From the NCBI GenBank assembly GCA_018662325.1, contig JABJGM010000001.1, forward strand, positions 1 through 56,575: a stretch of 56,575 bases of DNA. Direction: 5' to 3'. Under the pieces are notes generated by a model. It ran no database searches and had not been told where the DNA came from. It saw only the letters and a program-made list of their open reading frames with translations. Origin of the DNA: a bacterium (GTDB taxonomy: Bacteria; Patescibacteriota; Gracilibacteria; UBA1369; GCA-2718715). Position 1 is the first letter of the stretch; every line of letters starts with the position of its first letter. Positions 3,344 to 56,575 of the stretch are shown one piece after another. Both the position numbers and the translations under genes were made by a program.

Positions 3344-3432
3344 AATAAAAATTAAATTAATGCTTGAAACATATAGAATAAATTGAATAATAAAAAGCTA
3401 ATTAAACAAAAAAAACACATTTCCATAAATCA

Positions 3433-3507
3433 TGTTACGTTTGTAACAAATAAAAGATGATAAAGCAAATAAATTATGATATATTTTTGATGTATATAAT
3501 CACAATC
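3433..3507 (+). promoter_or_regulatory. Upstream region of the PDH operon: inverted repeat and -10 box
   Basis: A short inverted repeat (TGTTAC at 3433-3438, GTAACA at 3443-3448) lies ahead of a perfect TATAAT at 3495-3500. The E1alpha ATG follows only seven bases after the box, so a transcript from it would be leaderless or nearly so. I see no convincing -35 element. Confidence 0.35.
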
Positions 3508-4587
3508 ATGGAAAAAGTATTTTATACACATGACCCAAGAATAAATTCAGTATTTAAAGTATTGGATAAAAACGGAATTATCATAAACAATATAAATCAC
3601 GGAATAACTAATACAGAGTTATTGGAAATATATAAATGGATGATAAGAATAAATGCAGCAGATAAAAAAATTATAAACTTACAAAGACAAGGATTTATGG
3701 GAACATACCCATCAGTTCAAGGTCAAGAAGCCTGTCAAGTGGCAGCAAGTTTTGTACTAAGCAAAAAAGATTTCTTAGTACCTACATTTAGAGAAACAGG
3801 AATGATGTGGGCCAAAGGAATCCCTCTTAAAAGCTTAATGCTATATTGGATGGGTAACGAAAATGGATCAAAACACCCGCTAGACACAGAAGTTCTTCCA
3901 ATATGCATACCTGTAGGAAGTCATCTGCCACATGCACAAGGAATTGGATGGTCACAAAGACTAAAAAAACAAGAGGAAATTACACTCTGTAGCTTTAGTG
4001 ATGGAGCAACAAGTGAAGGAGATTTTCATGCAGCCTTAAATTTTGCAGCAGTTTTAAGATCAAGAACAATATTCTTTTGCCAAAACAATGGATTTGCAAT
4101 TTCAACTAAAACAGAACAACAAACAAAATCAAAAACAATCGCTGAAAAAGCGTTTGCATACGGAATGCAAGGAATAAAAGTTGATGGTAATGATGTCTTA
4201 GCTTTAATAATCGCACTTAAAGAAGCAAAAGAAATGGCAAAGAACAATACTCCAACCTTAGTAGAAGCATCAACATATAGACTTTCAGACCACACAACAA
4301 CAGACAATGCAAAACTCTACAGAGAAGACGATGAAGTAAAAGAAAAATTAAAAGAAGAACCAATTTCAAGATTTGAAAAATACTTAATCTCTCTAAAAAT
4401 ACTAGACCAAGAAAAAATCAATCAAATAAAAGAAGATGCAAAAAAAGAAGTCGAAAGCATAAGTAAAGAAGCTCTAGCAGAAAAAGATCCAGAACTTACA
4501 GAAATGTTTGATTATTTACTAGAGAAAACCTACCCAGAACTTGAATTGCAAAAAAAAGCTCTATTACAAGAATACTCTAACCAATAA
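3508..4587 (+). CDS. pdhA: Pyruvate dehydrogenase E1 component, alpha subunit
   Basis: Thiamine-diphosphate-dependent 2-oxoacid dehydrogenase subunit that decarboxylates pyruvate together with the beta subunit. The ThDP/Mg motif is visible as SDGATSEGDFHAALNFA followed by NNGFAIS, and a YPSVQGQEA segment is typical of the N-terminal part of the fold. I place the start at the ATG at 3508 (MEKVFY, 359 residues). Upstream in-frame starts add a hydrophobic tail that is not part of the family and overlap the -10 box. It is followed after 2 nt by the beta subunit, in one operon with E2. Confidence 0.93.
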   Translation: MEKVFYTHDPRINSVFKVLDKNGIIINNINHGITNTELLEIYKWMIRINAADKKIINLQRQGFMGTYPSVQGQEACQVAASFVLSKKDFLVPTFRETGMMWAKGIPLKSLMLYWMGNENGSKHPLDTEVLPICIPVGSHLPHAQGIGWSQRLKKQEEITLCSFSDGATSEGDFHAALNFAAVLRSRTIFFCQNNGFAISTKTEQQTKSKTIAEKAFAYGMQGIKVDGNDVLALIIALKEAKEMAKNNTPTLVEASTYRLSDHTTTDNAKLYREDDEVKEKLKEEPISRFEKYLISLKILDQEKINQIKEDAKKEVESISKEALAEKDPELTEMFDYLLEKTYPELELQKKALLQEYSNQ

Positions 4588-48240: not shown

Positions 48241-49614
48241 ATGAATCGATTTAAAGCAATTTTTTTAATATCAATTTTAACTTTAACCTTAACTGGATGC
48301 AGAAAAAAACCTCTACAACCAGTAGATAACACACCAGTGACGCTTAATTATTATAAATTATACGAGCCTGAGGAAAACATTAGACCAAGCTTAATGGCTT
48401 TTCAAAAAAAATTCCCTAATGTAACCATAAACTATAAAACTTTTAATGATTTTGATCAATACATGGAAACCATTTTAAATGAAATGTCAGAAGGTGGTGG
48501 TCCAGATATTTTTTCGGTACCAAACAGTTGGGTTGCACAAAATTATAAAAAACTAAAACCTGCACCAGTTGCAGATTTTAAAGCAGAAGACTTTGAAAAT
48601 ATCTTTGTAGGATTCACCTTTAATGACAACGTATTAAAAGATAAAGAAGAAAATGAATATATATACGGAGTACCACTAAGTACAGACGTGCTAGGCTTAA
48701 TATACAACAAAGAGCATTTTGAAACATCGATTCCACAAAGAGGTAAACCCGCAAATAACTGGCAACAATTACAAACCGACAACAGAATACTAACATTCAA
48801 GGATAACAACGGTGATTTTCTAAGAACAGGAATCCAATTAGGAAATCCAAATTATACAAGCTTAGATTCAGATCTATTTTACCTAAAGTTACTACAAAAC
48901 GACGTTAGTTTTTATAAAAATAACTTACAAGTAAATTTTCAAGGAAACGTAAAGAGCTCTAATATACTTACATACATCACAAGTTTTGCTGATAGCAAAA
49001 GTATAAACTATTCAACGCCAGTGTATAAACAAGCTGATACACCAGAATTAAAGGAGATAGAAAGTTTTTTAAGAGGAAAAACCTCTATGATACTTGGATA
49101 CAACTACACTTATCAAAATCTTTTTAAACAAATTCAACTATTGAAAAGAAATGGAATTGATACAATTGATTCATCAAACATAAGAATACAAGCAATTCCA
49201 CAAGAAACAATTTCAGAAAACAAAAAAGCATTTGCAAATTACTTCACAGAAGTAGTAAATCATAATACGAAACAAGAAAATTACTCATGGAGACTATTAG
49301 CAGAAATGATTCAAGCACCAAATCTTAGGAATTACTATGAAAAGAGCTTTAAGCCTAGTTCTAGAAGAGATCTTTTAGCAGAGCAATTAAACAACAGAGT
49401 ATTTAAAGATTACATTTCTCAATTGGGATACGCAGAAACTTTTAAATTCTCAGATAAAACAAAGGTAGATCAGATAATCAATGATATGATCCTTGATTCA
49501 ATTGAAAAAACTAATAACAGACCTAATATAACAAAAGCTGCTAGTCAAATTAATCAATTAATCCCTCAAGGTGGAATTACACCAAAAGTTCCAAACATTA
49601 TGCCAAAGGACTAA
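48241..49614 (+). CDS. Extracellular solute-binding lipoprotein (family 1, sugar type)
   Basis: The 457-residue protein has a lipoprotein signal ending LTLTGC (Cys20). The body matches sugar-binding proteins: FQKKFPNVTINYKTF, GGGPDIFSVPNSW, then YGVPLSTDVLGLIYNKEHF. No permease or ATPase genes follow; the next genes encode membrane proteins of other kinds. A TATAAT at 48215-48220 is the probable -10. Confidence 0.9.
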   Translation: MNRFKAIFLISILTLTLTGCRKKPLQPVDNTPVTLNYYKLYEPEENIRPSLMAFQKKFPNVTINYKTFNDFDQYMETILNEMSEGGGPDIFSVPNSWVAQNYKKLKPAPVADFKAEDFENIFVGFTFNDNVLKDKEENEYIYGVPLSTDVLGLIYNKEHFETSIPQRGKPANNWQQLQTDNRILTFKDNNGDFLRTGIQLGNPNYTSLDSDLFYLKLLQNDVSFYKNNLQVNFQGNVKSSNILTYITSFADSKSINYSTPVYKQADTPELKEIESFLRGKTSMILGYNYTYQNLFKQIQLLKRNGIDTIDSSNIRIQAIPQETISENKKAFANYFTEVVNHNTKQENYSWRLLAEMIQAPNLRNYYEKSFKPSSRRDLLAEQLNNRVFKDYISQLGYAETFKFSDKTKVDQIINDMILDSIEKTNNRPNITKAASQINQLIPQGGITPKVPNIMPKD

Positions 49615-50575
49615 AAACCTAAGCTTTTACATAACTGGAGTTTTAATATGCATGAATATATTTGCAATAAGTAAAACTCCAGATTTTTTTATTGCCAAAT
49701 TTAACTCATACGAGAGCCAAAAAATTTACCTATTTGAATTAAGTCTTCTTTTTGGATTATGTCTAAATATAGCTTACAACTATAAAAATGAATTTAAAAT
49801 TAAAGATCATTATCTCTATATTTTAATAATATTTAATCCATATTTAACATTACTACAAAAAACAATAACAGCAGGAGTAATCATGTTTTTAAATCAAAAA
49901 AACATAGATCTTATATTCAGAGGAATCAAACATGGAATTACATTTAATATTATCCCTGCAATCTATCAGTTAATCTTTCAAAAAAGCATAGGTCTATCTA
50001 AAATAGGGGAATCTTTATTATCTACAGATTTATCACAAATAGCTAAAATAGAAATAAGTAATCATAAATTTATAAGGTCATACGGATTACTAGCACATCC
50101 AAATATACTAGCTTTTATAAGTCTAATGAATCCAAAAATTAATAATAAACTCAAAGATTTTATAAATTTAATAACATTATCAGGATCAAATACATTAGCT
50201 TTATACTTAAAAAAATTAAAAAATAAAAAATATCTTAATATAAGTTTAATAATTTTGATATTAATACTATTAATAAAAGGACAAAATTCATTAAGCGAAA
50301 GATTTAATCAAATAATTATAAATAATAGCCACCACAATTTTCAACCAATACATAATCTAATATTAGAACCTATAAACAGTAAAAACTGGGGACTATTATA
50401 TGGCTTAATTATGTTAACAATAAGCAATATAAACAAAACATACTTTTTAATACCAATCCTATTATTAGACCATTTCATAATATCTAGCTTCGCATGTTTT
50501 ACAGTATTAATACTGTATTTAAAAAGTATGGACATAAAAACAAACACTGTTAAACTAAAGAAAATAATAATTTAA
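49571..50575 (+). CDS. O-antigen-ligase-like multispan membrane protein
   Basis: The 334-residue hydrophobic protein has about nine helices and the segment FIRSYGLLAHPNILAFIS, which resembles the pattern of O-antigen ligase/polymerase proteins. The GTG at 49571 overlaps the lipoprotein gene by 44 bp. I keep it because the later ATG at 49652 would cut the first membrane helix in half. Its short His-containing outer loop (NNSHHNFQPIHN) may be the catalytic one. Weaker match than the protein at 44335. Confidence 0.6.
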   Translation: MELHQKFQTLCQRTKNLSFYITGVLICMNIFAISKTPDFFIAKFNSYESQKIYLFELSLLFGLCLNIAYNYKNEFKIKDHYLYILIIFNPYLTLLQKTITAGVIMFLNQKNIDLIFRGIKHGITFNIIPAIYQLIFQKSIGLSKIGESLLSTDLSQIAKIEISNHKFIRSYGLLAHPNILAFISLMNPKINNKLKDFINLITLSGSNTLALYLKKLKNKKYLNISLIILILILLIKGQNSLSERFNQIIINNSHHNFQPIHNLILEPINSKNWGLLYGLIMLTISNINKTYFLIPILLLDHFIISSFACFTVLILYLKSMDIKTNTVKLKKIII

Positions 50576-50576
50576 A

Positions 50577-51449
50577 ATGAATAGAAGAGAATTTCTAACA
50601 GGTGCTGCAGTATTAGCAGGACTAGGTATAACACATAAACTAAATACAACAGACGAAGAAAAAATATACGAAGTAGAACAAATAGCCCAAACGGGTAAAT
50701 TCGTATGGCTCTCAGTTAGCTCAGGAATTGGTATTGCAATTGATGTAGCAATTGCAACTCTTGCTATGTGGAAAGATTTAGACACACGTGAAAAAAAATT
50801 AATTTGGACTGGGGGAGTTGGACTTAGTCATATATTCTTACCAATTTTATCTGGAAGCTTAACCTACGGAGCAGATAAAACTGGAGAATCATTCAGTCAA
50901 AATCCCGAAAACATAACTAGAGGAATCTCAAGCTTAGCAGCGGCGGCAGTATATAATCATACGATAAATGTAATTAAAGATGAAGAATCTGAGGAAGAAT
51001 TTGATTTCAACTACAAAAACATTGCTGACTTAATGTTAAAAATTTGGGCTGTTTCTGCAGACGCATTCGCAACTGGGCCTGCAAAATATAAACAAACCCA
51101 AACAGAAAATTGGTCAGCAAACAAAACTCTCTCAAGTGTGTGCATTGGTGGAATGACAGTAATGTCTATAGCCTTAATGTGCTTAAAATTATCAGATAAC
51201 TTCAGAGAAAAAGTAAATCAAAACCCAAATTTATTAAATGAGAAAGATGAAATCTTAACTGGAAAATTTATAAATGAAGAAAACCTTACTAAGCTAGAAG
51301 TAATCATTCTAAACTACTTTGGTGCTAACGCATTAATCAATGGAACATTTAAAATGAATGCAAATTTTTGGACTGTAAATGGAATTAATTTGCTATCAAC
51401 CTTTGGCTTATATAAAATTTTTAATAAAGAAGAAAACACAGAAAATTAA
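50577..51449 (+). CDS. Membrane protein with twin-arginine (Tat) motif
   Basis: The 290-residue protein begins MNRREFLTGAAVLAGLG, a good Tat-type signal with RREFL. After it come a hydrophobic segment (VWLSVSSGIGIAIDVAIATLAMW), a GGVGLSHIFLPILSG segment, and further helices, with an acidic insert near 135-145. I recognise no family. Tat signals usually mark cofactor-bearing soluble proteins, so a multi-helix protein with one is unusual. It lies 1 nt after the membrane protein gene and overlaps the HAD-like gene by 1 nt. Confidence 0.6.
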   Translation: MNRREFLTGAAVLAGLGITHKLNTTDEEKIYEVEQIAQTGKFVWLSVSSGIGIAIDVAIATLAMWKDLDTREKKLIWTGGVGLSHIFLPILSGSLTYGADKTGESFSQNPENITRGISSLAAAAVYNHTINVIKDEESEEEFDFNYKNIADLMLKIWAVSADAFATGPAKYKQTQTENWSANKTLSSVCIGGMTVMSIALMCLKLSDNFREKVNQNPNLLNEKDEILTGKFINEENLTKLEVIILNYFGANALINGTFKMNANFWTVNGINLLSTFGLYKIFNKEENTEN

Positions 51450-51820: not shown

Positions 51821-51825
51821 ATTTT

Positions 51826-51852
51826 AACTCCCCAATCACAGGGGAGTTTTTT
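51826..51852 (+). terminator. Intrinsic terminator, copy 1 of the duplicated cassette
   Basis: AACTCCCC pairs with GGGGAGTT around a 7-nt loop, followed by T residues. Confidence 0.88.
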
Positions 51853-51871
51853 AAAACAAAGTAAATGCTAA

Positions 51872-51899
51872 TTGACAATATTACAAATTTATACATAAT
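51872..51899 (+). promoter_or_regulatory. Promoter of the first repeat-protein gene, copy 1
   Basis: TTGACA (51872-51877), a 16-bp spacer and CATAAT (51894-51899), 22 bp ahead of the ATG at 51922. The same elements are conserved in copy 2. Confidence 0.7.
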
Positions 51900-51921
51900 A
51901 ACATCTTATGTAAAAAAATTT

Positions 51922-54774
51922 ATGATTCAAAAAAAGAAATTTCAACTATCATTTAAGGATATATTAAAAGAAGAGCAAAAGAGCAGTCTTGAACAAATAG
52001 TAAAGTTGACTGAAAAACTTAAAAGTCAACAAACAAAAGAAGAAAAGATAAAAACAGAACAAGAAATTAAAGATTTAATAATAAAACCTGAAAGCACAGA
52101 AAAAAAAGTACTTAGGATAAGTGAAATAGTAGCAACAGAAATAGAGAGCATTACCTTAACAGGATACAATTATCAAAGAATCCAAAGTACAGAATCCAGT
52201 ATAGAAGGAGATCTAAGCATAATACAAAACAATAAGGAATCAACTGAAAAGCAAGAAGCAATTCAAAACGTACTTCTAAATCATTTCAAAGTAGAACAGA
52301 GTCAATCAATAGTGCTAACAGAAAGAATCGAGCAGAAACATTTAAATCATAAATATTTTGCTTATTATTCTGTAGTAAAAGAAACAGGAATATTGATAGT
52401 TTTAAATGATCAATATGGACAAGCAGCAAGAATAAAAAAAGTAAAATCACAAGAACAAGCAGAAACTCAGTTAGCATTACTAATAGCAATGCTAGAAAAC
52501 TCAAACAAGAAAACAATGGACGAAGTCCAAGAATTTGAAGCATTTGCAAATATATATACATCCAAAGAAGATCTAGAGCAGCTTTACATAAAGAAAATAA
52601 ATGAACACCTAAAAACATCAATTTCAAAAATTGACTTAACAAAAAGCGCAAAGGAAATCTGGGAAAGTATTCAAGGAAAAACAATAACCACACCGGGAAA
52701 GAAAAGCAGAAAAATAAATACAATCCAAGATTTTATAAAATTATCAATTACAGTAATAACTAGAGGAAAAATAGGAAAAACATCAGTACGAGATATATTA
52801 AATGCAATACTAGGATTAAATAACGAAAAGAAAATCTTAACAAAATGTAGTTCAATAAATGAAAAAAATGAAAGAGTTAAATATGCAAGGGAAAAATTGA
52901 AGAACCTAGTAATAGAAGAAGGGTTAGGAAAAAAAGCAAGAAATCAATACAAAGCTTATTTAGAAATAAAACAAGAAGCTATAGAAGAAAAAATTGACTT
53001 AACAAAAAGCGCAAAGGAAATCTGGAAAAGTATTCAAAGAAAAACAATAACCATATCAGGACAAAGAAATAAAGAAATAGAAACCATCCAAAATTTCTTA
53101 AAATTATCATTTTCAGTAATAGTTAAAGGAAGAATCGGAACCACGCCTATGAGAGAAATAATAAATGCAATGTTGGAATTAGAAGAGGATAAAAAAATAA
53201 CATCGTACGAGTCAGATCAAAAAGGAAAAAAAAATCAAGAAAGAGTCGAAACTGCAAGAGCAAAAATGAAGAAACTAGTAATAGAAGGATGGTTAGGTAA
53301 GGATACAAAAGCAGACTACGAAGCTTACTTAAAAAAAACACATGATAAAAAAATTGATTTAAGGGGAACTGCTAAAGAAATCTGGAAACAAGTAAAAGGA
53401 CAAACAATTATCACAACTGGGTACAAAGATAAAAAAATAAATACAATCCAAGATTTTTTAGGATTATCATCTACAACAATAATACACGGAAAAATAGAAA
53501 GTATTTTAGTAAGAGAAATAATAAATGCAATATTGGGATTAGAAGGGAAGGACAAAATTTTATCTTATCATAGGAAGGATAAAGGTATAGAAAACAAAAA
53601 AAGAGTCGAAACTGCAAAAGAAAAATTGAAGAACCTAGTAACAGAAAGAGACTTGGGAGAAGAAGCACAAAGAGAAATGCAAACATTAATACTAGAAAAA
53701 ACAAATTCAATTACAGAAAAACCAACAAATACAAATGGAATAGAATTCGATTCAATGGATGAATATGTAATAGGAAAAATATTAGAAGAATATGTAACAA
53801 ACAAAGACGGAGCAAATTTTAGATTAGAAACAGGTACAAACTTTCAAGTAGGGGTAGAAAAAAATAACAACTCGAAAAATCCAAGATTAGACTTTATAAT
53901 CAGTACAGAATTCACAAAAGATAGCTGGGAGAGCATTGTAATCGAATGGCATCCATTTAGATTAGATTTAGTAAAGAGTAAATTGGAACTAGAAATTAAA
54001 AATGCAGAAAATAAAGGAAAAGAAGAAGAACTGGAAAAAAAATTAGAAAAACTAAAGACGAAAGATCCGGAAACTATAAAAAAAATAAAAAAAAATTATG
54101 AAAATGAAAGAGAAAAATTAGCAAAAAAATTACTTAATAACGAAACAGCAATAGTCATAACATTTCAAGACCAAAAAGAAATAGAACCCTTATATGAATT
54201 CTTAACTACCTTTACAATCACAAATTCAAAATTTCCAAATACCAAAGAAGAATTCACAACAAAATTCCATAGAATATATAAGCAAATATCATACATCCAA
54301 GAAAAGAAAAAACAAAGAAAAGGAAGAGTTATAATAGAAGAATACTTAGAAACAAATAATATACATTCAATTGAAGGATTAACAAATAAACAAATAACAA
54401 CATTATGGAATGAAAGTTTTACTTTTGATGTAAACAGAAACAAAATTTCACAAAGAATAAGAAACTCAGTAACACACACAAGAAAAACAAAGAAAGAAAA
54501 TGAAATTGATTATCGAAGAAGAAACCTAATAGCATTCTACAATTGCGATGAATATAAATTAAAAGACGCAGAATTAGAAGAGAATATTAATCAAAAAATT
54601 GAAGCAAAAAGGCACGAAATCACAGATTTAGAAGCCATTTTAAAACCAGAGCATGAAACAGCAGAAACAATAGAAACTAAAACAATTGAAGAACAGGTAA
54701 CTGTAGATATGCAAAAAAAAGAATTACTAGAACCAATTGAAGTCTATCAAGAATTTCAATTAACATCATACTAA
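51922..54774 (+). CDS. Modular repeat protein with putative PD-(D/E)XK-like nuclease domain
   Basis: The 950-residue protein starts at 51922; the upstream ATG at 51865 lies before the -35 box and is absent in the paralog. An N-terminal domain (1-236) contains LTERIEQKHLN and ILIVLNDQYGQAARIKKV. Three repeats start at residues 237, 358 and 478. Each opens with TAKEIWK-type helices, then TIQDFIKLSITVIT-x-GKIG, then VREIINAILGL, then a Lys-rich helix. Residues 608-800 look like a nuclease fold: FDSMDEYVIGKILEEY, RLDF (Asp657) and VIEWH (Glu675, His677). A basic helical tail closes it. The repeats resemble helix-turn-helix units. I know no described family; nuclease activity is inference. Confidence 0.7.
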   Translation: MIQKKKFQLSFKDILKEEQKSSLEQIVKLTEKLKSQQTKEEKIKTEQEIKDLIIKPESTEKKVLRISEIVATEIESITLTGYNYQRIQSTESSIEGDLSIIQNNKESTEKQEAIQNVLLNHFKVEQSQSIVLTERIEQKHLNHKYFAYYSVVKETGILIVLNDQYGQAARIKKVKSQEQAETQLALLIAMLENSNKKTMDEVQEFEAFANIYTSKEDLEQLYIKKINEHLKTSISKIDLTKSAKEIWESIQGKTITTPGKKSRKINTIQDFIKLSITVITRGKIGKTSVRDILNAILGLNNEKKILTKCSSINEKNERVKYAREKLKNLVIEEGLGKKARNQYKAYLEIKQEAIEEKIDLTKSAKEIWKSIQRKTITISGQRNKEIETIQNFLKLSFSVIVKGRIGTTPMREIINAMLELEEDKKITSYESDQKGKKNQERVETARAKMKKLVIEGWLGKDTKADYEAYLKKTHDKKIDLRGTAKEIWKQVKGQTIITTGYKDKKINTIQDFLGLSSTTIIHGKIESILVREIINAILGLEGKDKILSYHRKDKGIENKKRVETAKEKLKNLVTERDLGEEAQREMQTLILEKTNSITEKPTNTNGIEFDSMDEYVIGKILEEYVTNKDGANFRLETGTNFQVGVEKNNNSKNPRLDFIISTEFTKDSWESIVIEWHPFRLDLVKSKLELEIKNAENKGKEEELEKKLEKLKTKDPETIKKIKKNYENEREKLAKKLLNNETAIVITFQDQKEIEPLYEFLTTFTITNSKFPNTKEEFTTKFHRIYKQISYIQEKKKQRKGRVIIEEYLETNNIHSIEGLTNKQITTLWNESFTFDVNRNKISQRIRNSVTHTRKTKKENEIDYRRRNLIAFYNCDEYKLKDAELEENINQKIEAKRHEITDLEAILKPEHETAETIETKTIEEQVTVDMQKKELLEPIEVYQEFQLTSY
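52630..53709 (+). repeat. Three tandem 120-residue coding repeats
   Basis: Repeat starts lie at 52630, 52993 and 53353 (periods 363 and 360 bp). The first 45 positions align without gaps. Position 45, immediately before G-(K/R)-I, is Arg, Lys and His in turn. The three copies are clearly diverged from each other. Confidence 0.85.
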
Positions 54775-54826
54775 GAAAATACTTTAAACAAACCTATATA
54801 TCCAGCCAGAAATGATATTTAAGTAT

Positions 54827-54852
54827 AACTCCCCAATCACAGGGGAGTTTTT
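54827..54852 (+). terminator. Intrinsic terminator, copy 2 of the duplicated cassette
   Basis: Same AACTCCCC/GGGGAGTT stem and 7-nt loop as at 51826, followed by T residues; it ends the first repeat-protein gene. Confidence 0.85.
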
Positions 54853-54872
54853 CAAAGTAAAGTAAATACTGA

Positions 54873-54900
54873 TTGACAATATCACAAATTTATGCATAAT
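54873..54900 (+). promoter_or_regulatory. Promoter of the second repeat-protein gene, copy 2
   Basis: TTGACA (54873-54878), a 16-bp spacer and CATAAT (54895-54900), with the same distance to the ATG as in copy 1. Confidence 0.7.
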
Positions 54901-54922
54901 AACATCTTATGTAAAAAATATT

Positions 54923-56575
54923 ATGGTTCAAACAAAGAAATTTCAACTATCATTTAAGGATATATTAAAAGAAGAGCAAAAGAGCAGTCTTGAACAAATA
55001 GTACAGTTAGCTGAAAAACTTAAAAAACAGCAAACTCAAGAAGAAAGAAAGAAAACAGAAGAAGAGATACGGAAATTAATAATAAAACCTGAAACCTCAG
55101 AACAAATAGTAGGTAGCATTAGCCAGCTAGTGAAAACAGAAGTAGAACATATTGCTTTACCAGGATACAATTATAAAAGAGAAGAAAACACAGAACAGCA
55201 GAAAGAAACAGAAGAAACAAAAACACCAAAGATTCGAAAATCAATTGAAAAGCAAGAAGTAATCCAGAATATACTATTAAACCATTATGAATTAGAAGAA
55301 AGTCAAATCATAGTGTTAACAGAACGAATTAAACAAAAACATTTAAACAAGAAATATTTAGCATATCATGCAAAAATTAATGGAATAGGAATATTAATAG
55401 TCTTAAATGATGAATACGGACAAGCAGCCAGAATCAAAAAAGTAGAATCTACTCAAGATGCAGAAACACAGTTAGCACTATTAATAGCAATGTTAGAAAA
55501 CATAGATAAAAAAACAATGGATGAAGTTGAAGGCTTTGAAGCTTTTGATAATACATATACATCTAAAGAAGATCTAAGAGAATTGTATATAAAAAAAATC
55601 AACGAATACTTAAAAACGTCAATAGCAGAAATAGAATTAAGCGGAAGTGCAGAAGATATCTGGAAAAGAATAAATTTACCAGCAACAATTGTATATAAGG
55701 GAAAAGAAAAAATAGTCTACACAATCCAAGATTTTATAAAATTACCAATTACAGCAATAATACATGGAAAAATAGGAAAAACACCTATGAGAGAAATAAT
55801 AAAATCAATGTTAGAACTAGATGGGGATAAAAAAATCACATCGCACACTTCAAGAGAAAAGCGAGAAATAAACAAAAAAAGAGTTGAATCTGCAAGAGCA
55901 AAACTAAAGAAACTAGTCTTAACAGGAGACTTAGGAGAAGAAGTGCAAACAGAATATGTAAAATATTTAGAAGAATTAGAAGAAACAGAAAAAGAATTAA
56001 ACGGAACTGCGAAAGAAATCTGGAAAAGAATAAACTTACCAGCAACAATTCCATATAAGGGAAAAGAAAAAATAGTCTACACAATCCAAGATTTTATAAA
56101 ATTACCAATTACAGTAATAACAGATGGAAAAATAGGAAAAACACCTATGAGAGAAATAATAAATGCAATGTTAGGACTAAAAGGGGAGGATAAAATCACA
56201 TGGGAAGATTTTAGAGAAAAAGGAGAAATAAACAAAAAAAGAGAAAAGCTGAAGAAACTAGTCTTAACAGGAGACTTAGGTACGGATACAAAAGAAAAAT
56301 ATGAAGCTTATTTAGAAGAAAATCCAGAAGTTGAAGAAGAAGAAATCGATTTAAGCGGAACTGCAGAAGATATCTGGAAAAGAATTAACTTACCAGCAAC
56401 TATTGTCTATCAGGGAAAAGAAAAAATAGTCTACACAATCCAAGATTTTATAAAATTACCAATTACAGTAATAACAGAAGGAAAAATCGGAATTACTCCT
56501 GTTAGAGAAATAATAAATGTAATGTTGGGATTAAAACAGGATGAAAAAATCAAAAGTAATAGTAAATATCAACAA
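54923..56575 (+). CDS. Second modular repeat protein, paralog, cut by window end
   Basis: An ATG at 54923 opens a frame with no stop to the last base, at least 551 residues. The N-terminus (VQTKKFQLSFKDILKEEQKS) is nearly identical to the first gene's, and the first repeat begins at the same residue, 237. Further repeats start at 357 and 475; the last is incomplete. These three repeats are much closer to each other than those of the first gene (shared RINLPATI-YKGKEKIVYTIQDFIKLPIT). Position 45 reads His, Asp and Glu. Whether a nuclease-like domain follows cannot be seen. Confidence 0.75.
   Translation, partial: MVQTKKFQLSFKDILKEEQKSSLEQIVQLAEKLKKQQTQEERKKTEEEIRKLIIKPETSEQIVGSISQLVKTEVEHIALPGYNYKREENTEQQKETEETKTPKIRKSIEKQEVIQNILLNHYELEESQIIVLTERIKQKHLNKKYLAYHAKINGIGILIVLNDEYGQAARIKKVESTQDAETQLALLIAMLENIDKKTMDEVEGFEAFDNTYTSKEDLRELYIKKINEYLKTSIAEIELSGSAEDIWKRINLPATIVYKGKEKIVYTIQDFIKLPITAIIHGKIGKTPMREIIKSMLELDGDKKITSHTSREKREINKKRVESARAKLKKLVLTGDLGEEVQTEYVKYLEELEETEKELNGTAKEIWKRINLPATIPYKGKEKIVYTIQDFIKLPITVITDGKIGKTPMREIINAMLGLKGEDKITWEDFREKGEINKKREKLKKLVLTGDLGTDTKEKYEAYLEENPEVEEEEIDLSGTAEDIWKRINLPATIVYQGKEKIVYTIQDFIKLPITVITEGKIGITPVREIINVMLGLKQDEKIKSNSKYQQ
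55631..56575 (+). repeat. Three near-identical tandem coding repeats (third incomplete)
   Basis: Repeat starts lie at 55631, 55991 and 56345 (periods 360 and 354 bp). Long stretches match at the DNA level, for example the segment encoding KGKEKIVYTIQDFIKLPIT, which points to recent internal duplication or gene conversion. Confidence 0.85.

Follow-up and report, generated by a model that had tools for sequence, protein, structure and literature searches.

On the evidence of sequence, the repeats carried by three side-by-side genes, called A, B and C below, are a new, orphan, lineage-specific repeat-protein family, whose function we infer. The three genes form an array which starts near the end of the window (the whole stretch of DNA analysed, 56,575 nucleotides, which is contig C6 of a genome of 980 kb in 14 contigs) and continues on another contig. 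Their 14 repeat units can be aligned and have five invariant residues (W6, I27, L33, G41, I43), and a profile built from these same units recovers them at E values of 1e-26 to 1e-43. This means that the repeats of about 120 residues reported by an earlier note on this DNA are real.

That note also knew of no described family with this layout, and our family, PDB, genome, viral, phage and plasmid searches agree with it. We found no credible relative in Pfam, NCBIfam, PADLOC (gene A and the window part of gene B), PHROGs, the PDB, phages, plasmids, IMG/VR and GTDB contigs, the contig scans being made with short exact peptide patterns, which would miss distant relatives. Nor was there any in 89 genomes of the order, all of them searched with the N-terminal domain as the earlier note had proposed, or in samples taken from the class (288 genomes) and the phylum (380). 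The N-terminal domain has no family match in the libraries searched, and these libraries gave no adhesin or toxin family for the array. Four sets of weak matches were rejected. The match in genome G031 falls in another protein, a TPR-like one, and the match in G212 in an AcrB-like pump whose frame has TGA as a sense codon. A match in G027 (E 7e-4) covers residues 24-85 only; we regard it as spurious, given its low score and a short span which resembles a coiled coil. When IMG/VR was scanned with a DNA pattern encoding IEWHPFR, the nine matches obtained were due to chance, in frames that are short or unrelated. Concerning the second of these, TGA is apparently sense in that genome, which is of the same class, the AcrB-like gene (locus L028, contig C18) being open only when it is read so; the class appears to mix two genetic codes. 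A small genome and a class with TGA-recoded members suggest that the bacterium which carries the array probably belongs to the Gracilibacteria-like part of the Candidate Phyla Radiation.

Architecture and surroundings of the array

The two adjacent genes of the earlier note are where it placed them, in a frame open from 51865 to 54774 and in another running from 54923 to the end of the window (Table 1). Gene A would have 969 residues if counted from the upstream ATG, but we set its true start at 51922 and not at 51865, because the 19 preceding codons are promoter DNA which is also present upstream of gene B. The N-terminal domain common to A and B is confirmed, with 68% identity over the first 236 residues (67% in the domain alignment). 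Gene B consists of this domain and five repeats, without the C-terminal domain, while the C-terminal domain of gene C is 67% identical to that of gene A over the last 365 residues or so. Gene A, which has its first 236 residues in common with B and its last 365 or so with C, is thus the only copy having both ends. Over their last 83 residues A and C are 88% identical; in DNA this stretch is 93% identical, more than the rest, which suggests a recent exchange between the two genes. Inspection of the gene start (MIQKKKFQLSF) reveals no signal peptide, and neither a signal peptide nor a transmembrane start is visible in A, B or C.

Gene B is cut at position 56575 because contig C6 stops there. The last 123 bases of C6 are exactly the first 123 bases of contig C12 (18,086 bp), and nothing else in the joined array repeats this overlap, the next-best match there being of 76%. 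Moreover, the upstream gene for a solute-binding protein, on C6, and the downstream fmt gene, on C12, are neighbours in 12/12 relatives searched, where one membrane-protein gene lies between them, with an extra small gene in one relative. The unique overlap and the synteny in 12 relatives together support the join of C6 to C12. Extending the contig past 56575, as had been advised, does bring a further copy, gene C, after the rest of gene B. As the break falls inside the third repeat of gene B, the number of repeats in this gene may be an undercount.

The array belongs to an island of about 10.1 kb comprising five genes (a TAT-signal protein, a short HAD-like protein, A, B and C), which is absent from the conserved block in 12/12 relatives. 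The block itself, made of the solute-binding-protein gene, the membrane-protein gene and fmt (window 48241-50575; L008:4248-5165), is conserved across the order. Three further genomes of the order (G003, G041 and G013) encode homologs of the TAT-signal membrane protein (window 50577-51449). A functional link between this protein and the array was considered and rejected, since the homologs are not accompanied by the array; they stand in unrelated places, next to translation or other housekeeping genes. Among the open frames of the island we recognised no defence, integrase or transposase gene, and we saw no operon partner pointing to defence or to RNA processing.

One terminator-like inverted repeat precedes A and others lie in the A/B and B/C intervals, and an exact repeat occurs at 51825 and 54826, upstream of A and B. 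The terminator scan left the plus-strand copies of both inverted repeats unflagged. The strong promoter-like site of A recurs at B (Table 1). Upstream of gene C, a TTGACA box and a AACATCTTA motif can be seen in the sequence, where the scan gave a weak site only. Shuffled sequence gives promoter and terminator counts at least as high in these scans, and the transcription units are therefore deduced from the duplicated sequence and not from the scans. With this reading A, B and C appear to have separate promoters and not to be one operon.

Table 1. Coordinates of the features of the array (window positions unless a contig or locus is named)
Feature	Position	Strand	Remarks
Terminator-like inverted repeat	51826..51852	+	CTCCCC..GGGGAG and T run; after upstream HAD-like gene; near-copy before gene B
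Gene A promoter-like site	51872..51899	+	TTGACA-16-CATAAT, 11/12
Gene A	51922..54774	+	950 aa: N-domain, 3 repeats, nuclease-like C-domain, tail
Gene A N-domain	51922..52629	+	aa 1-236; 68% identical with gene B; no family match
Gene A repeat 1	52645..53007	+	repeat alignment, profile
Gene A repeat 2	53008..53367	+	repeat alignment, profile
Gene A repeat 3	53368..53700	+	repeat alignment, profile
Gene A C-domain core	53692..54303	+	aa 591-794; PD-(D/E)XK-like element order, putative; 61% identical with gene C
Putative active-site residues E614, D657, E675-x-H677 (gene A aa)	53761..53952	+	conserved stretch LDF..WESIVIEWHPFRLD
Gene A C-terminal tail	54304..54771	+	aa 795-950; helical
Terminator-like inverted repeat, A/B interval	54827..54852	+	CTCCCCAATCACAGGGGAG and TTTTT
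Gene B promoter-like site	54873..54900	+	TTGACA-16-CATAAT, 11/12; hexamers identical to those of gene A
Gene B	54923..56575 in window, then C12 (L008:1-993)	+	first 551 of 840 aa in window
Gene B N-domain	54923..55630	+	domain alignment with gene A
Gene B repeat 1	55646..56005	+	repeat alignment, profile
Gene B repeat 2	56006..56359	+	repeat alignment, profile
Gene B repeat 3 (cut by contig end)	56360..56575	+	final 123 bases identical to the start of C12
Gene C	L008:1101-4238, outside window		1045 aa: 6 divergent 103-aa repeats and C-domain

The repeats and the C-terminal domain

The repeats fall into two classes, the units of A and B having about 108-124 residues and those of C about 103. 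In the repeat tree, B1-3, B4-5 and C1-6 form groups, which shows that copies multiplied within each gene. The units C1 and C2 have more than 100 identical bases in common and are, as far as their sequences tell, a recent tandem duplication. The dN/dS ratio is 0.4-1.2 between repeats and about 0.14-0.26 for the N-domain; the end domains are under purifying selection. The first 58 residues or so of each unit, which we call the repeat core, have a net charge of +1 to +7 in 13/14 units. The rest of the unit, the linker, is for the most part acidic in B and C. Taken as a whole, the units of gene C range from nearly neutral to acidic, and only gene A is clearly basic. The basic cores are compatible with binding to nucleic acid, but they are not a proof of it.

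The AlphaFold2 model of the whole of gene A has a low global confidence (mean pLDDT 58.7, pTM 0.25), but its repeat region, mostly at a pLDDT of about 70-90, is predicted with fair confidence to run three times through one succession of elements: a helix, a hairpin, a pair of short helices, a second, short hairpin, a helix and a helical hairpin. The earlier note had likened the repeat to a helix-turn-helix, and this likeness found no support: the models have a helix-hairpin-helix-helix-hairpin-helix arrangement and not the tri-helical fold, the profile search gave no significant helix-turn-helix family match, and Foldseek found no significant match for the repeat model in the PDB or among viral models.

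The motifs DEY, RLDF and VIEWH pointed out in gene A, which had been likened to those of PD-(D/E)XK nucleases, are present and place E614, D657 and E675-W-H677. Along residues 591-794 the predicted order is a helix with E614, the strand FQVGVEK, the strand LDFII with D657, the segment SIVIEWHP with E675-x-H677, a helical insert, the strand AIVIT and a helix. When A and C are compared, conservation in the core is highest around D657 and E675 (LDF..IVIEWHPFRLD). D657 and E675-x-H677 are present and conserved in gene C, with a histidine in place of the lysine of the usual E-x-K. The order of the elements and the acidic motifs thus fit the proposed likeness; the fold does not come out in the models or profiles. 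The separate model of the domain has a mean pLDDT of 48.9 and no Foldseek match, neither the full-length nor the separate model shows SIVIEWHP as a properly formed strand, and there is no match in Pfam, NCBIfam or the PDB and no profile link to member families of PD-(D/E)XK. Homology with DUF559 and RAP was rejected, as the hhalign scores against DUF559 and RAP-like members are within the range of shuffled controls. That the C-terminal domain is a nuclease is a reasonable reading and not a result, the balance being nearly even with a slight lean in its favour.

Possible activity of the proteins

We tentatively favour, as a possibility, a lineage-specific cytoplasmic family in which repeats direct binding to nucleic acid and a PD-(D/E)XK-like end acts on it. 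Three to six copies of a mostly basic helix and hairpin module of about 58 residues, with a helical linker, would bind nucleic acid, and the target would more likely be RNA or structured DNA than a long duplex DNA read base by base. The repeats of A and C would deliver the putative phosphodiesterase (E614, D657, E675-x-H677) to this target, and gene B could be a binding-only partner, a competitor or a regulator; a role for the N-domain, too, would have to be inferred. We counted in favour of this scheme the order of the C-domain elements, the basic cores, the divergence of the repeats against a constrained N-domain, the missing signal peptide, a layout parallel to that of OPR-RAP proteins and the existence in the same order of a helical protein with a RAP-like end. 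Against it, we counted the want of any match to a part of the proteins, whether by sequence, by profile or by fold, the poor C-domain model, E-x-H for E-x-K, a clear basic character in A only, and the failure to see a recognition-code pair or an operon partner. Of the modular targeting nuclease of the earlier note, the modular repeat family and the motif order are supported, the helix-turn-helix repeat is not, and no TALE-like specificity pair was seen. None of the contrary outcomes which the note had listed (repeats predicted not to bind nucleic acid, a non-nuclease fold, a full-length match to a characterised family) was obtained. A bolder version, where a basic module of new fold and of about 58 residues, used in tandem, aims an unrelated restriction-like nuclease at chosen nucleic-acid targets, with nuclease-free paralogs, in a single lineage and independently of TALE, PPR/OPR and CRISPR, seems to us quite improbable.

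The repeats may instead be a scaffold for contacts between proteins and the C-domain a dead restriction-like or another alpha/beta fold, A, B and C forming a structural or regulatory assembly in which A and B would meet through the common N-domain and A and C through the common tail. This would agree with repeats which are charged yet roughly neutral overall in B and C, with variable positions which are mostly surface loops, with the lack of a fold match to a nucleic-acid-binding domain, with an A/C tail more conserved than the nuclease-like core, and with the deviation of E-x-H from the usual active site. It explains less well why the stretch around D657 and E675 is the part of the core which varies least and why 13/14 cores are basic, and we hold it to be somewhat doubtful. 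A defence or mobile-element-control locus, whose repeats recognise foreign nucleic acid, which A and C cut while B modulates, takes up the defence option of the earlier note and is suggested by an insertion of about 10 kb between genes otherwise adjacent in all 12 relatives, and by an orphan, fast-diverging and amplified family, as is typical of arms-race genes; the absence of any PADLOC match for A and the window part of B, of recognisable defence or mobility genes in the island and of an operon, the genes apparently having separate promoters, makes it improbable. Amplified repeat proteins are common in host-directed adhesin or toxin roles, and the small genome probably reflects a host-associated life, so A, B and C might be adhesins or delivered toxins which act outside the cell, for instance on the host, the bacterium being presumably epibiotic. 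With no visible export signal or membrane start, no adhesin or toxin family match and a conserved housekeeping block as neighbours, this is very improbable.

If the C-domain is active and the repeats bind nucleic acid, as in the reading we favour, the array would represent a new means, evolved independently, by which repeats aim a nuclease, and this in bacteria whose genomes are very small. If not, it is still an orphan and expanding repeat family with a predicted repeat fold without significant PDB match, and a structure would be informative.

Comparison with known systems

Like TALE proteins, A, B and C have tandem degenerate repeats which differ inside one protein. TALE repeats have about 33-35 residues and a two-residue code, whereas the present ones are three to four times longer (103-124) and lack such a pair: a TALE-like code was sought and not seen, as the entropy per position reveals no hypervariable pair of residues and the most variable positions are mainly in surface loops. 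The C-terminal domain resembles DUF559 and Vsr-like nucleases, by eye, in the order of helices and strands and in the spacing of D and then E-x-H/K, but differs from them in having no Pfam match, in its hhalign scores and, in gene A, in a long helical insert from the motif strand to the last strand. Elsewhere, a DUF559 nuclease-like domain stands in frame inside an apparent aroA (EPSP synthase) gene (L069, G018:C16 around 3376-3699), with repeat-like residues at its borders; it may be a mobile DUF559 insertion.

A close parallel is given by OPR-RAP proteins, in which an array of RNA-binding repeats is followed by a C-terminal PD-(D/E)XK-like domain (PMC8190603). This layout, also of FASTK type, of repeats and then a restriction-like end is that of A and C, but OPR-RAP repeats are helical pairs of about 34-40 residues while ours have about 103-124 residues with beta-hairpins, and A, B and C have no Pfam match to the RAP domain (PF08373). 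In the same order, a helical protein with an open frame of 467 aa (L073, G009:C2 around 1617-1838) has a DUF559/RAP-like C-terminal end (INIELDGPHH); Pfam gives it DUF559 alone, at E 0.0018, below the cut-off, and its end has no profile similarity to the C-domain of A and C. By its sequence, this would seem to be a bacterial protein of the OPR/FASTK-RAP type. Our best guess for A, B and C is a repeat-guided, nucleic-acid-binding nuclease or RNA-processing factor, comparable to OPR-RAP.
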